Source: Holophagales bacterium (GTDB lineage: Bacteria; Acidobacteriota; Thermoanaerobaculia; Multivoradales; Multivoraceae). From it: a stretch of 64,000 nt of DNA. A program made the position numbers and the translations under genes. The notes below the pieces were generated by a model, which was not told where the DNA came from, did not search any database, and saw only the letters and a program-made list of their open reading frames with translations. Position 1 is the first letter of the stretch, and every line of letters begins with the position of its first letter. Below are positions 24,954 to 31,051 of the stretch, piece after piece. The stretch is taken from NCBI GenBank assembly GCA_009837885.1, contig VXSP01000045.1, forward strand, positions 475,644-539,643. Reading direction: 5' to 3'.

Positions 24954-26036
24954 TTGAAGGCGGCGGCAAACCAATCCGAAGGGGCCGACATCGGGTCGCC
25001 GGGTGTCTGCGAGGACGTTTGCGAGGCGATCGGAGGTACGCCGATGGTGCGTCTCCGGCGCTCCCTGGGCGGGGCCGGAGCCGGCGTCGAGGTGTTCGCC
25101 AAGCTCGAGTTCCTCAACCCGATGGGCAGTGTGAAGGACCGGGTCGCGCGCTATCTCGTGGATCGCGCGCTCGCGTCCGGCGTGCTCAAGCCCGGCGGGC
25201 TGGTGATCGAGGCGTCCTCCGGCAACACGGCGATGGGCCTGGCCATGATGGCGACCACCCGTGGACTGCGCTGCCGGGCGGTGGTACGCCGCCAGACCAG
25301 CCGCGAGAAGCTCGATTGCCTGCGGGCTCTGGGCGTCGAGCTCGTTCTGGTGGACGGTGATCTGGATCCCGAGCACCCGGATTCGTACAACCGGAAGGCG
25401 CGGAGCCTCGTCGCGGCCGAGCCGGAGGCCTTCTTCCCGGACCAGCACAACAACCGGGACAACAACGAGTGCCACTACGAAACGACGGCTCCGGAGATCT
25501 GGCGCCAGATGGAGGGCCGGATCGACGTCTTCGTCGGCGGTATCGGTACCGGGGGCACGGTTTCCGGGGTGGGCCGCTTCCTGAAGGAGAAGGACCCGGC
25601 CATCCAGGTCGTGGCGGTCGACGTCGAGGGATCCGTGTTCAGCCGTCACTTCGCGGCTCTCTCCGGCGGCCCCGACGCTTCCGCGCCGGCGGGTCGCTAC
25701 CTGCTCGAGGGGCTGGGCGACGAGGAGATCATCGACTGTCCGGAGTTCGAGGTCTTCGACCGGATGCTCCAGGTCAGCGACGCCGAGGCGTTCCTTGCGG
25801 CCCGCGAGCTTGCCCGGCACGAGGCGATGCTGGTGGGCGGTTCGAGCGGCGCGGCGCTATGGGGCGTGCGGAAGATGTTGCGGGAACTGCGACCGGGCGC
25901 CCGGGTCGTGACCCTGTTCCCCGACTCGGGGACCCGCTACCTCAGCACGATCTACAACGATGACTGGCTGCGCGAACGGGGGCTGCCCGTCTCGCGCGGC
26001 GAACGCGGGCCTCAGCCGGCGAAGATCAGGTCATAG
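24954..26036 (+). CDS. PLP-dependent cysteine synthase family protein
   Basis: Beta-replacement enzyme of the cysteine synthase / cystathionine beta-synthase fold, likely making cysteine from O-acetylserine or O-phosphoserine. The PLP lysine is in MGSVKDRVARYL, with the substrate loop SSGNTAMGLAM, phosphate loop GGIGTGGTVSGVG and GGSSGAALWG. A TTG start 12 bases after the preceding gene gives 360 residues, longer than CysK. The segment DPEHPDSYNRKARSLVAAEP suggests a CysM or cystathionine-synthase subgroup. Its end overlaps the convergent CPBP gene by 25 bases. Confidence 0.88.
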   Translation: MKAAANQSEGADIGSPGVCEDVCEAIGGTPMVRLRRSLGGAGAGVEVFAKLEFLNPMGSVKDRVARYLVDRALASGVLKPGGLVIEASSGNTAMGLAMMATTRGLRCRAVVRRQTSREKLDCLRALGVELVLVDGDLDPEHPDSYNRKARSLVAAEPEAFFPDQHNNRDNNECHYETTAPEIWRQMEGRIDVFVGGIGTGGTVSGVGRFLKEKDPAIQVVAVDVEGSVFSRHFAALSGGPDASAPAGRYLLEGLGDEEIIDCPEFEVFDRMLQVSDAEAFLAARELARHEAMLVGGSSGAALWGVRKMLRELRPGARVVTLFPDSGTRYLSTIYNDDWLRERGLPVSRGERGPQPAKIRS

Positions 26037-26752
26037 CCCACGGCCATGATCGCCAGGTCGAGACAGACGTGGCTGAGCCAGGGCGCGAGCAGGCGGTTGC
26101 CCGTGGCGCGGTAGAGAACCGACCAGAGGACGCCTCCGAAGACGACCGGAAGCGACATGAGGGTCAGGAGCAGGACCGAGGTGTCGCCAAGATAGACGCC
26201 GATGACGACCACGTGGTGAGCCGCGAAGCCGATGGCGGCTACCAGGTGCGACCACCTGGACGAGGTCAGGCGGCGGAGCCGGCCGTAGACGAAGGCGCGC
26301 CAGTAGACCTCCTCGAGCCAGGAGTGGACGAAGCTGATCAGAAGTGCCGCGACGACGTAGCGCTCCAGGGTGTCGAGATGGAAGTCGGCCAGCTTGACGG
26401 TGATCGCCTCGGCGGCGGTCGCGGCCGTTTCGCCGCCGCGAAACAGCACGGAATAGGCCAGCCACGTGAAACCGGCTCCCGCGATACCGGTGCCCAGGCC
26501 GAGCCCAATCGATCGGCCGGGCCGCGCGGGGCCGAAGGCGGCCGCCAGAAGGACGCCCAGGACGGCTAGCGGTCCGGCGAACTGAATCGTCTTCGCACCG
26601 AGGTAGACGGGTGCGACCCAGGCCGTGCCCTCGAGCCAGACGAAGTAGGCGAGCGAGGCGACCGTGGGCAACGTCATCGCGGCGCCCAGGATCGTCCACC
26701 AGAGCGCTCGACGGCGCGGCTCGATCGATTCGTTCTCGCCGGGCCGGTTCAT
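26012..26752 (-). CDS. CPBP family intramembrane metalloprotease (CAAX/Rce1-like)
   Basis: 246-residue membrane protein with about seven hydrophobic helices. The three Abi/CPBP motifs are all present: EEVYWRAFVYGRL (EExxxR), AAHHVVV, and WLSHVCLDLAIM (HxxxD), which together build the zinc or catalytic site. Targets of bacterial members are mostly unknown. Its ATG overlaps the preceding glycosyltransferase stop by 4 bases, placing it last in the pseudokinase-glycosyltransferase run. Confidence 0.88.
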   Translation of the reverse strand: MNRPGENESIEPRRRALWWTILGAAMTLPTVASLAYFVWLEGTAWVAPVYLGAKTIQFAGPLAVLGVLLAAAFGPARPGRSIGLGLGTGIAGAGFTWLAYSVLFRGGETAATAAEAITVKLADFHLDTLERYVVAALLISFVHSWLEEVYWRAFVYGRLRRLTSSRWSHLVAAIGFAAHHVVVIGVYLGDTSVLLLTLMSLPVVFGGVLWSVLYRATGNRLLAPWLSHVCLDLAIMAVGYDLIFAG

Positions 26753-28029
26753 GGCCGGGCGCCATCCTCCAGGGCGTCGACGTAGGCCTGCCGGTATCTG
26801 CCGGCCACGATGTCCCAGGTCAGTTGGGCGACGGCGCGGGCGCGGGCCCGGGCGCCCATCAGGCGCCGCTTTTCCGGGTTGCCGAGTAGGCCCGCGATCG
26901 CCTCCCTCAGAGCGGCGCGGTCCTGCTCCGGAACAAGGACTCCCTGGATTCCCGATTCCACCGCGAGGGGGATTCCGGAGACCGTGGTGGCGACCACCGG
27001 GAGCCCGCTGGCCAGGGCCTCCAGGATCACGTTGGGCAGGCCGTCGACGTTGCCCTGGGGATCGTGAACGGCGGGGAGGACGAAAAGGTCGGCGCCGCGG
27101 TAGAGACCGGGCAGATCGTCGTGGGCGACGGCGCCGGGAAGGTGGACCCGGCTCGCGTGGTCCGGCCTCCATCCGTTGAGCGCCGCCTGGAAGTCCGCCA
27201 TCTGATCGCCGTCGCCGGCAATGATCGCGTGCAGGTCACTGAAGTTGGACAGCAACCGGGGCAGCACGTCGACCAGGACCTGGAAGCCCTTCTTCGTCGC
27301 CAGGCGGCCGACGCCGAGCAGGACGGTGGAGTGTCCTGGAATGTCCAGGCGTTCACGCCAGGATTGCTCATCCGGCTCGCCCGGGAGCTCCCCGGCCGGG
27401 CGGAACATGTCGGTATCGACGCCGTAGGGGATGACGCGCGACGGCTTGCCGCGATAGCCGATTCGCTGGACTCGCTCGACGAGTTCGGGCGAGCATCCGG
27501 TGAGCAGGCCGCAACGGGCCAGGGCGCGACGGATCGCCGGCCGCGCGAGCGCCTTCTCGGCCAGGAAGACGTCGCTGCCATGAAGGCCCGCCGCGATCAG
27601 TGTCCCTTTTCCGTGCACACCCGGCCACAGGGCCACCAGCCCGTTCGGGGCGACCCAATGGGCGTGGAGCAGGTCGTAGCGTTCCCGTCCGAGGTGCCGG
27701 GCCACCGCCCTCGCCGCCGCGAGCAGATAGAGGGGAGCGGCGAACGCGGCGCCCGGCCGTACATGTTCGTCCGCGGCCAGACTGCGGCCGTAGCCAAGGA
27801 CCTCCAGTGGACGGGGGGCGTAGGCGAAGGAGCGGACATCGACGCCGTCGTCGCTCCAGGCGCGGCGCACCCCCGCCGCGCGCGGCGTGAGCACCGTGAC
27901 GCGGTCGCCGCCGCGGACCAGCCCACGGGCCAGCTCACGGATGAACGGTCCGGCCGTATCGCCGGGCCAGCGAGGGTAGGTCTGGGTGAGGAAGAGGATG
28001 CGCAGGATCGCGCTCCTGCCGCCGGACAA
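26749..28029 (-). CDS. Glycosyltransferase family 4
   Basis: 426-residue GT-B enzyme for a surface glycan. N-terminal LRILFLTQTYPRWPGDTAGPF is typical of polysaccharide GT4 proteins, with HAHWVAPNGLVA in the acceptor half, LLGVGRLATKKGF before the donor site and EALASGLPVVATTVSGIP in it. The apparent start is TTG, 6 bases downstream of the GT2 gene. Third gene of a four-gene minus-strand set. Confidence 0.88.
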   Translation of the reverse strand: MSGGRSAILRILFLTQTYPRWPGDTAGPFIRELARGLVRGGDRVTVLTPRAAGVRRAWSDDGVDVRSFAYAPRPLEVLGYGRSLAADEHVRPGAAFAAPLYLLAAARAVARHLGRERYDLLHAHWVAPNGLVALWPGVHGKGTLIAAGLHGSDVFLAEKALARPAIRRALARCGLLTGCSPELVERVQRIGYRGKPSRVIPYGVDTDMFRPAGELPGEPDEQSWRERLDIPGHSTVLLGVGRLATKKGFQVLVDVLPRLLSNFSDLHAIIAGDGDQMADFQAALNGWRPDHASRVHLPGAVAHDDLPGLYRGADLFVLPAVHDPQGNVDGLPNVILEALASGLPVVATTVSGIPLAVESGIQGVLVPEQDRAALREAIAGLLGNPEKRRLMGARARARAVAQLTWDIVAGRYRQAYVDALEDGARP

Positions 28030-28035
28030 CCGCTC

Positions 28036-29055
28036 TCAGCCGACCCGCTCGCGCACCGAGTAGCTGTCGGGCCGGCGAAAGTTCTTGAAGGTAATCAGTT
28101 CGCCGATCAGGCCGGTCGTGACGATCTGGATGCCCAGGACCATCAACAGGACCCCGAGCAGCAGCAGCGGCCGATTGGAGAGAGTGGCGCCGGCGAACCA
28201 GGTGGCCGCGAGCCAGGCGCAGATGCCCAGGCCGGCCGCGAAGCTGATCAGACCGATCGGGCCGAAGAGGTGCAGCGGGCGGCGGGTGAAGCGGCTGATG
28301 AACAGGACCGTGATCAGGTCCACGGGTCCCTTGTAGGAGCGATCCCATCCGTACCGGCTGCGGCCGATGCGGCGCGGATGGTGAGCCACCGGAATCTCGC
28401 CGACGAGAAAACCGCGACGGCTGGCGAGCACGGGAATGTAGCGATGGAGTTCCCCGTACACGGCGACCTGCTCCAGGACTTCCCGGCGGTAGGCCTTGAA
28501 GCCGGAGTTGAAGTCATGCAGCCTGACGTTCGAGAGGGTGCGCGTCACCCAGTTGAAGACCTTCGACGCCAGCCGCCGGCGCCACGGGTCGCGCCGGGTG
28601 CGCTTCCAGCCGGAGACGAGATCGAGGGGGCCGTCGTCCAGCGCCTGCAGCAGACGCGGAATCTCGTCGGGATCGTCCTGCAGGTCGCCGTCCATCGTGA
28701 CGAGAATCCGGCCCCGCGAGTGATCGACGCCGGCCGAGAGGGCGGCTGCCTTGCCGAAGTTCCGGCGCAGTCGAATGAGCCGCACCCGGGGGTCGCGCTC
28801 GTGTTCGCGGCGCACGGCATCGGACGTGCCGTCGGTCGAGCCGTCGTCGATGAAAACGAGTTCCGCCCGGACGTCGATGGCGTCCAGATTGGCAAGGACG
28901 CGCTCGGCCAGGGCGGCTACCGTCCCGCTTTCGTCGAGGACCGGTACGAGAACGCTGACGTCGATGGGCGCCTCCTGGTCCCTGTCGACGGACGGCTCGT
29001 CGGCCCAGGAAGCGGCTTCGCTCCGTGGCGCCGTCAACTCGATCGTCTCGGCCAT
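28036..29055 (-). CDS. Polyprenyl-phosphate glycosyltransferase, GT2 (DPM1/ArnC/GtrB-like)
   Basis: Transfers a sugar to a lipid carrier phosphate, making membrane-bound donors for envelope glycans. The GT-A domain shows SVLVPVLDESGTV, FIDDGSTDGT, the metal-binding TMDGDLQDDP and ADFNSG-like LHDFNSGFKAYRRE. Two C-terminal membrane helices (about residues 265-290 and 298-322) fit the GtrB/ArnC layout. 339 residues from a clear ATG. It lies between the pseudokinase and GT4 genes. Confidence 0.92.
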   Translation of the reverse strand: MAETIELTAPRSEAASWADEPSVDRDQEAPIDVSVLVPVLDESGTVAALAERVLANLDAIDVRAELVFIDDGSTDGTSDAVRREHERDPRVRLIRLRRNFGKAAALSAGVDHSRGRILVTMDGDLQDDPDEIPRLLQALDDGPLDLVSGWKRTRRDPWRRRLASKVFNWVTRTLSNVRLHDFNSGFKAYRREVLEQVAVYGELHRYIPVLASRRGFLVGEIPVAHHPRRIGRSRYGWDRSYKGPVDLITVLFISRFTRRPLHLFGPIGLISFAAGLGICAWLAATWFAGATLSNRPLLLLGVLLMVLGIQIVTTGLIGELITFKNFRRPDSYSVRERVG

Positions 29056-29117: not shown

Positions 29118-30914
29118 TCAGTCGGCCGGCGTCGTGGAGCCCGCGCTTGCCGCTGACGTCCCCGGGAGCGGCGCCGGCTCCGGTTGTGGGGGAACGTACT
29201 CGATTCTCCGACCGTTGACGATCAGGAGGGGTGGCTCGGCTTCGAGGTCGAACTGGATCGTCGTCTCCTGCCTGGAGTTCACCTGGATCTTCTGGTCGAT
29301 CCGGTCCTCCGGCTGCCACCTGGGGTTGCGGAGGAGACTCAGCACATGGGCGCCGGCGGGGACGGGCAGGTCGAGGATGGGCGTCCAGCCGACCGCCTCA
29401 TCGCCGATGCGAACGAACACGGGACGTTCCGACTCGGTTGCCGGCGCGATGCTGACGGCGCCGGGCCGGACCAGGGGCACCGGCGTCTCAAGCAACCGGT
29501 CCACGCCGACCTGGGTCACGACCTGTTCCCGGATCTGGTAGTCGCGGGTGGCGAGTTCGAAGGTCAGGATGTGGTCGACCCCGGCCGCGACCTCGAAGAC
29601 CCTTCTGCGATCAAGGACCACAGGCGCTTGGCCGTCAACCGAGACGGTAATCCGCGGATCCCAGGCGGGCGCCAGGGCCAGGCGGCCGATGCCCCGGCTG
29701 ACGGCTGGAGTCGGGTCCGAAGGTCTGGCCGTCGTCTCCTCGGGCATGGTCAGGTTGACGGGCTTGGTGGCAGGCTTCTCGCCTTCGGTTTCCGCGACGA
29801 CTGCCTGCTGTTCGACCGGAGGCTCGGCGCGCGGCGCGGGCGCTTCCGATCCGGCGACCGGGCTGCCCTTCGACCACCACAGCGTGCCGCCGAGCCAAAG
29901 CGCGGTGCCGGCGACCGTGGCGAACGTCAGCCAGCGGCGCCGGAGGCGGGAGCGGGGCGGACGGCGGATCGCGTCGGCGACCGTGTCGAGAGTCGGCGGG
30001 GAGGTCGTCTCCGGAGGCACGGCACCTCCGTTGATCTCGACTTCGATCAACGAGGAGTCGGAAGCTCGGGCTGTCTGTACCGTCGTGGCCGTCCAGTCGT
30101 TCGGCTCGCGCTGCGAGGAGGCATGGTCGCCAGGCGTCCCGACGAGCTCCTGGTACGCGCCTTCGAGGGCGCTGACGATGGGAGTGAAGTCCGCTGCACG
30201 CTTCGCGGGATCGTCCCTGAGGCAAGCTTCGAGTACGGCGACAAGTGATCTCGCGACATGCTGTGGGAGCTGGGCCCTGATCGCCTTCTGCAGGAAACGC
30301 CGATGCTTCGACTTCAGCCGGCGGGAGGGCACCTGCCGATCGGCGGGTTGGAAGGTCAGCACCCGGTGTGTGAGCACACCGAACGCGTAGATGTCGGTCG
30401 GCACGTCGACGGTGCCGCCCCGCAGCAGCTCCGGTGCGTGGTACCTGACGTGCGCGCGCGGTCTCGGACTCGCGAAAGCCCGAAGGGCGGCGCTGTCGTC
30501 GGAACGGATCGTGATGGCGCCGGGGTGGACGTCTCCGTGGACGACGCCCAGGCCATGCGCGTGCTCCAGTGCGCGCGCAACCTGTGCAAGCCAGCCCAGC
30601 GCCGTGCGGATCGGCAGTTTGTCGCACTGTTCGAGCCGGGCCGCCAGCGTTTCGGTGCCCAGGCACTGCTCGATTCGGCACGAGGTCGCGCCGTCGATTC
30701 CGAAGTCGAGAATGCGGGCGATCGAGGCGTGTTCCAGCCGTCCGACCGCGGCGGCCCGCTTCAGGAAGAGGGCCTGAGCCTCGGCCGCCTCTCCGGTCCA
30801 GGTGTCGATGACTACGGGGCTTTCGTCCCGCGTGTCGCGACCGAGATAGGAGGCTGCTCCAGGCTTCGCTTCGAGGCGGCGGAGAATCTCGAAGTGACCA
30901 ATTTGTTGACTCAT
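29118..30914 (-). CDS. Membrane-anchored protein pseudokinase with PEGA-like periplasmic domain
   Basis: A 598-residue protein: kinase-fold domain (residues 1-255), one membrane helix (about 328-347) and a periplasmic beta-rich tail containing PEGA-like repeats (from about 420). The kinase fold is recognisable (GVVHGDVHPGAI, YHAPELLRGG, DIYAFGVL), but the chemistry looks lost: the VAIK lysine is Asp37 (VVID), the glycine-rich loop reads EAKPGAAS, the Mg-binding Asn is Ala133 and DFG is AFA (Ala146). HRD survives as HGD. It heads a run with GT2, GT4 and CPBP, so it may sense the envelope and scaffold or regulate glycan synthesis. The ATG at 30914 was chosen over a longer frame. Confidence 0.82.
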   Translation of the reverse strand: MSQQIGHFEILRRLEAKPGAASYLGRDTRDESPVVIDTWTGEAAEAQALFLKRAAAVGRLEHASIARILDFGIDGATSCRIEQCLGTETLAARLEQCDKLPIRTALGWLAQVARALEHAHGLGVVHGDVHPGAITIRSDDSAALRAFASPRPRAHVRYHAPELLRGGTVDVPTDIYAFGVLTHRVLTFQPADRQVPSRRLKSKHRRFLQKAIRAQLPQHVARSLVAVLEACLRDDPAKRAADFTPIVSALEGAYQELVGTPGDHASSQREPNDWTATTVQTARASDSSLIEVEINGGAVPPETTSPPTLDTVADAIRRPPRSRLRRRWLTFATVAGTALWLGGTLWWSKGSPVAGSEAPAPRAEPPVEQQAVVAETEGEKPATKPVNLTMPEETTARPSDPTPAVSRGIGRLALAPAWDPRITVSVDGQAPVVLDRRRVFEVAAGVDHILTFELATRDYQIREQVVTQVGVDRLLETPVPLVRPGAVSIAPATESERPVFVRIGDEAVGWTPILDLPVPAGAHVLSLLRNPRWQPEDRIDQKIQVNSRQETTIQFDLEAEPPLLIVNGRRIEYVPPQPEPAPLPGTSAASAGSTTPAD

Positions 30915-31051
30915 GCGCGAATGCCAAGAAGTTGATGAGAGAACGTGATGATAGCACATTTTTCCCGTAAGTTGTTGTGCTTCAGTGGCTTGTGTCTGCT
31001 GAACGACAGCGCTCGGGCGGCGCTGCTAGGGTCGGCAGGGCGGAAGCGAAG

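Follow-up and report, generated by a model that had tools for sequence, protein, structure and literature searches.

A gene in the window (the whole 64,000-nucleotide stretch that was analyzed), here called psk, almost certainly encodes a membrane pseudokinase, judging from its sequence: residues needed for catalysis have been lost, the loss is conserved throughout the genus under purifying selection, and phosphotransfer is predicted to be gone. The explanation that fits best overall, to which we give an even chance, is that a receptor-like Ser/Thr kinase lost catalysis on the stem of the genus and was kept thereafter as a non-catalytic membrane protein. A role as a non-catalytic membrane scaffold or adaptor is a reasonably likely one. 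Because catalysis has been lost, selection has been kept, and working kinases have been discarded almost entirely by the genus, psk probably serves the cell envelope as a structural or sensing component.

Results

Architecture of the psk protein

The features discussed here are collected in Table 1. Read on the plus strand, the interval 29118-30914 is interrupted by stops. The assigned ATG is supported by L020/L051, where a single in-frame codon lies upstream of it. Alignment of the 21 upstream regions of the genus revealed two elements in the leader (30915-30976) that are kept genus-wide, namely a TGTGCTATCAT-like element, which is a candidate for the -10 element of the psk promoter, and CAACTTCTTsGCAT directly before the ATG; no obvious Shine-Dalgarno sequence was seen in this leader. 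The psk gene of G009 (L051, 7131-7486) contains two compensating frame changes, spanning the linker and the first part of the tail, which are either an assembly error or real.

Table 1. Positions of psk, its parts and the genes that follow it, in window coordinates
Feature	Position	Strand	Basis
psk, membrane pseudokinase, 598 aa	29118..30914	(-)	ATG at 30914, stop 29118-29120; ORF call and Pkinase/PK_Tyr_Ser-Thr matches; present in 21/21 genomes of the genus
Candidate extended -10 element TGTGCTATCAT in psk leader	30948..30958	(-)	Alignment of 21 upstream regions, in which it is largely conserved
Kinase-fold domain (residues 5-258) with degenerate catalytic sites and a shortened activation segment	30141..30902	(-)	Pfam and motif alignment
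Juxtamembrane region and single TM helix, residues 321-356, best-conserved part within the genus	29847..29954	(-)	Identity and dN/dS
β-rich tail, predicted periplasmic (residues 406-575), probably made up of two subdomains	29190..29699	(-)	Tail profile; strand pattern from low-confidence models only
GT2 glycosyltransferase, polyprenyl-phosphate type	28036..29055	(-)	Nearest ArnC/PgfS/AglJ, below NCBIfam cut-offs
GT4 glycosyltransferase	26749..28029	(-)	Profile matches
CPBP (Rce1-like) intramembrane protease, EExxxR motif (EEVYWR)	26012..26752	(-)	Pfam Rce1-like E 1.6e-11, scanned as 26012-26725

By its sequence, psk belongs to the Hanks-type kinase fold, with a profile match that spans both the N- and the C-lobe: in Pfam, PK_Tyr_Ser-Thr (PF07714) is matched at E 5.7e-15 over residues 26-248 and Pkinase at E 6.9e-14, well above the cut-off, and kinases in the PDB match it by sequence with E-values to 1.1e-18, the best being PknB, StkP, and PknA. 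The predicted structures are of low confidence, with a mean pLDDT of 46 for the full-length protein and 40 for the tail, and a Foldseek search with the full-length model (mean pLDDT 46) returned kinases only among the 50 matches listed. Beyond the kinase domain come a linker, a single TM helix (approximately residues 328-347, located by eye), and the β-rich tail. The helix is preceded by RLRRRW, and by the positive-inside rule the tail is therefore predicted to be periplasmic.

This layout, that is, a Hanks fold with a C-terminal TM helix and an extracytoplasmic β-rich tail, is shared with the PASTA-bearing receptor kinases of the PknB/StkP/PrkC type, from which psk differs in lacking the full set of catalytic residues and in having a tail that is not PASTA. 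An assignment as a PASTA kinase was rejected, since PASTA is absent from the Pfam matches of the full protein and NF033483 covers residues 22-356 only, scoring 74.9 bits where the cut-off is 450. The sequence-only reading had described a transmembrane helix followed by a periplasmic PEGA-like tail; the single helix and the β-rich tail hold up, but the PEGA label is weak. The tail in the window has no Pfam match to PEGA (PF08308) even at E <= 10, and among the aligned tails there are weak matches in 6 of 10 at that threshold, the best at 0.0078. With the curated cut-off not reached, membership of the PEGA family was not adopted.

Loss of the catalytic residues across the genus

Our sample of the genus comprises 21 genomes, the window's own and 20 others, and all of them carry psk. 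In every one the glycine loop is gone (LEAKPGAASY in the window against IGxGGFGxVY), the β3 lysine is replaced by aspartate (Asp37), HRD has become HGD with the catalytic aspartate (Asp128) retained, the catalytic-loop asparagine is Ala, Met, or Leu (Ala in the window), and DFG is xFA (AFA in the window). The four degenerate positions named from the window sequence alone, namely VAIK Lys to Asp, the missing glycine loop, Asn to Ala, and DFG to AFA, are thus real and dead in all 21 genomes. Two further changes come on top of them: the αC glutamate is replaced by arginine in 20/21 genomes (Arg53 in the window) and by glutamine in one, and the stretch from DFG to APE has 11 residues in all 21 genus proteins versus 24 in 18 of 18 intact relatives, a deletion of 13 residues. 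The window protein keeps APE, DxxxFG, and the C-lobe arginine, so the fold is retained, but it had been called complete, and with 13 residues deleted the activation segment is not. The canonical salt bridge of kinases joins the β3 lysine to the αC glutamate. Because the β3-αC region aligns free of gaps, the substitutions to Asp and Arg can be placed at both partners of this bridge.

An active Ser/Thr kinase is rejected on these grounds (Lys to Asp, Asn to Ala, DFG to AFA), as the aspartate of HGD is the only required residue that is kept. The recurrence of the same changes in 21/21 genomes likewise disposes of chance and of sequencing error or recent decay.

Some kinase-like folds, such as SelO and SidJ, bind ATP in unusual ways or carry out other ATP-dependent activities. 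That the lobe of psk does something of this kind, binding ATP otherwise or using Asp128 of HGD for another ATP-dependent activity, we regard as very improbable. The invariance of this aspartate in all 21 genomes would suit such a chemistry, as would the DLHK pseudokinases, which, according to a review from 2025 that covers bacterial pseudokinases (PMC12599244), keep the equivalent aspartate and are modeled to bind ATP without the β3 lysine. However, the lysine, the asparagine, the DFG aspartate, and the glycine loop are all lost from psk, the 13-residue deletion takes most of the activation segment, and Arg53 and Asp37 do not provide an arginine-rich pocket like that of the DLHK pseudokinases.

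Intact kinases with the same tail outside the genus

Across the order, a profile of the tail (A2) has matches in 51 of the 72 genomes and 18 of the 28 genera. Outside the genus, one strong match per genome (E < 1e-20) was found in 26 of 51 genomes of the order, and all 26 loci were analyzed. Every scorable protein (18/18) retains Lys, Glu, HRD, Asn, and DFG; a further one, from G057, is cut by a contig end and keeps HRDIKPAN and DFG. Seven of the 26 loci were left unscored, owing to contig ends (G024, G032, G033, G050, G054, G058) or to unread bases over the motif (G047). The intact kinases (for example, those of G022, G031, and G039) share the kinase-TM-tail architecture with psk, but they have VAIK, HRD..N, and DFG intact, and their GT2 and GT4 genes are convergent or elsewhere.

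With 21/21 dead inside the genus and 18/18 intact outside it, the simplest history is a single loss of catalysis, on the stem of the genus. Intact orthologs had been named beforehand as the finding that would speak against a pseudokinase; they turned up outside the genus only, which places the loss on that stem and leaves the pseudokinase reading standing. In the trees, a branch with 100/100 support separates the psk rows from all others, and the psk stem is long; the larger tree includes 20 of the 21 rows, with L020 omitted for its frame changes, and the smaller one 8 of the 21. The grouping of psk with the kinases of G021 and G022 has a support of only 70/74, in the smaller tree. Because of this support and the long stem, the orthology of psk to the outside kinases rests on neighbors and tail rather than on the tree: the G021 and G022 kinases adjoin a symporter and radC, as psk does, and the tail motif GW[AT]P is common to all of them. 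The intact orthologs in sister genera represent the state of psk before the loss.

Where selection acts

Purifying selection on psk persists, and it is strongest on the TM helix and then on the periplasmic tail. Between clades A and B of the genus, identity is 91% in the juxtamembrane and TM region, 82% and 69% in the two tail subdomains, and 61% and 53% in the two kinase lobes; for the TM helix it is 91-98% within the genus. Within clades A and B, respectively, the median dN/dS amounts to 0.03 and 0.09 in the TM region and to 0.15 and 0.14 in the tail, and to 0.30 in both clades for the kinase domain, with 0.28-0.29 for the whole of psk (in these identity and dN/dS figures, clade B is represented by 6 of its 7 rows, L020 having been dropped). 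Conservation thus falls from TM helix to tail to kinase domain in the genus, and from kinase domain to tail to TM helix in 9/9 pairs of intact proteins; the TM columns of the latter are hard to align, so that their low TM figures are rough, but the reversal between kinase domain and tail is independent of them. The constraint on the TM helix and the tail indicates that these are parts that work, and since the other parts of psk change more slowly than the kinase domain (0.30), any function of the lobe itself may be minor. The shift of constraint from the kinase domain to the TM helix and tail provides a testable map of the working part.

The same figures could describe a kinase lobe that is a leftover wearing down, with the TM helix and tail alone functional as an anchor that displays the tail. 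Such a relic would account for a kinase domain that is the least conserved of the structured parts and is under looser constraint than in the intact relatives, whose best-conserved part it is, but we consider it unlikely: the dN/dS of the domain, 0.30, is still well below 1, the frame is open without a frame change in 20/21 genomes, Asp37 and HGD are invariant in 21/21 and the αC arginine is kept in 20/21, and no truncated psk without the kinase lobe occurs among the 21 genomes.

A reduced kinome with a second pseudokinase

The genus, which we take from record names to be associated with sponges, has few Hanks-type kinases. Pkinase matches (E <= 1e-8) number 2-5 per genome in its 21 genomes, compared with at least 15-49 per genome in 20 relatives from the order. 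Exactly two matches (E <= 0.001) are present in 15 of the 21 genomes, these being psk and a second pseudokinase. The genomes are 86-98% complete, which makes single absences unsure, but not 15 together. The second pseudokinase, found in 21/21 genomes (in the window's own genome at G000:C4:10963-12060, L056/L176), is a short membrane protein (366 aa in the window's genome) that ends in a C-terminal TM helix; in all 21 it has HGS or HGG for HRD and lacks both DFG and the β3 lysine. Its best outside matches, among those listed, are only 31-38% identical, and hence no clear ortholog was found.

Additional kinases with a VAIK-type lysine, HRD..N, and DFG are encoded in five genomes of the genus (the window's own, G000, and G013, G016, G018, and G019), with loci from all five checked, and exactly these five have FHA matches (0/16 of the others; 3-22 in each of 20 relatives). 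A kinase-like stretch with HRD and DFG is present in G017 and contains an in-frame stop, and weak PP2C-like matches occur in 17/21 genomes. In the window's own genome, intact kinases, FHA genes, and PP2C-like genes lie together in an accessory cluster at G000:C34:about 127678-140280 (L053, L054, L081, L188); kinase and FHA matches are also near each other in G013, G016, and G019, and kinase and PP2C-like matches are together in G018.

Pseudokinases whose role has been established mostly act alongside active kinases or phospho-readers. In the 15 genomes that have neither a third Pkinase match nor an FHA match, psk cannot regulate a Hanks kinase or recruit FHA readers, and we therefore rejected regulation of a partner kinase and MviN-FhaA-like phospho-recruitment as general mechanisms; such a mechanism may operate in the five genomes, including that of the window, where an accessory kinase-FHA cluster occurs. 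As most genomes of the genus are without an intact Hanks kinase or an FHA match, a kinase-independent function of a pseudokinase can be studied in them without the usual confusion.

The gene run and its neighborhood

As had been described for the window, psk lies ahead of GT2, GT4, and CPBP genes in the same direction. The spacer from psk to GT2 is 62 nt and that from GT2 to GT4 is 6 nt, and the CPBP ATG lies over the GT4 stop in a 4-nt ATGA overlap. Conservation of the four-gene set in relatives, proposed earlier as a check, was found throughout the genus, where order and the single direction are kept in 21/21 genomes. In two genomes, G016 and G019, an insertion of 2-3 kb separates gt2 from gt4 (L050, L063), and gt2 of G016 is split in two frames.

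Outside the genus, an old GT2-GT4 pair is found near the housekeeping genes gmk, coaBC, udg, thrS, and radC across the order, with or without a tail kinase of the psk type, and so the proximity of these genes to psk may be inherited synteny. A tail kinase lies on one analyzed stretch together with GT2 and/or GT4 in 10 of the 26 outside genomes, and the arrangement is convergent in 10/10, from which it follows that the same-direction run is new in, or particular to, the genus. In two of these ten (G024 and G032), a CPBP gene of 38% identity adjoins GT2.

Two ways of reading the run have to be weighed. On the one hand, GT2, GT4, and CPBP may be clients of psk, a suggestion that is drawn from gene order and that we make only tentatively. 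On the other hand, psk may have an envelope role unrelated to them, with joint transcription a matter of history, for which the chance is a little short of even. The place of the GT2-GT4 pair in the housekeeping block and the separation of the kinase from GT2/GT4 in G021 and G022 are in line with the latter reading, while the origin of the same-direction run on the very stem where catalysis was lost, and its maintenance in 21/21 genomes, argue against it. The run was not classed as a glycan biosynthesis or export operon, because only GT2, GT4, and CPBP follow psk and no flippase, polymerase, or exporter was identified in it. The earlier proposal of a pseudokinase scaffold that couples envelope state to glycan export thus keeps its membrane-anchored pseudokinase, but its export part loses ground, with no exporter or flippase identified in the run and with GT2 and GT4 being old neighbors from the housekeeping block.

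Discussion

Proposed mode of action

In the explanation that we favor, a receptor-like Ser/Thr kinase would have lost phosphotransfer on the genus stem and the protein would have been retained, acting from then on through its membrane and periplasmic parts. The TM helix may pack in the membrane through its small-xxx-small steps (A332-G336 and A338-G342), the tail may bind an envelope ligand or a partner, and the cytoplasmic pseudokinase lobe would offer a docking face. As far as can be told from sequence, this lobe is possibly fixed in one state by a charge-reversed β3-αC bridge, with Asp37 and Arg53 in place of Lys and Glu. The likeliest clients would be GT2 (of the undecaprenyl-phosphate-sugar type), GT4, and CPBP, which are encoded directly behind psk and are predicted to be membrane-bound or membrane-linked. 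Taken jointly, these steps make up a larger proposal that we put forward as a possibility short of even: out of a kinome of dozens, the Hanks fold would survive in the genus almost only as two pseudokinases (21/21 each), the sensor of psk would now be its working part, with the lobe locked by the Asp-Arg bridge, and psk would have come to stand first in a glycosyltransferase/protease operon on the same branch.

Relation to known pseudokinases

In the literature on pseudokinases and Acidobacteri, judged from the listing alone, we recognized no earlier description of a comparable Ser/Thr pseudokinase from acidobacteria, and a term search of the text of the 2025 review (PMC12599244) returned neither 'Acidobacteri' nor 'PEGA'. 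Two systems outlined in the review (PMC12599244) are the closest in build. EssB/YukC of type VII secretion is a single-pass membrane pseudokinase scaffold with a degraded glycine loop and a shortened activation loop, features that psk has in common with it, but the neighbors, the tail, and the lineage of psk are different, and no type VII secretion genes are among its identified neighbors. MviN of Mycobacterium, a pseudokinase recruiter that is tied to envelope synthesis, is a phosphorylation target of PknB that FhaA reads (PMC12599244); psk has no flippase domain, and 15/21 genomes are without a third Pkinase or an FHA match. Hence, psk resembles EssB/YukC and MviN in anatomy, not in neighbors or in the remaining signaling system. 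The features that define the MviN/MurJ pseudokinase domain (ActPs3) in the review (PMC12599244), namely degenerate motifs, an activation-loop deletion, and a TM region, are all present in psk, as a resemblance only.
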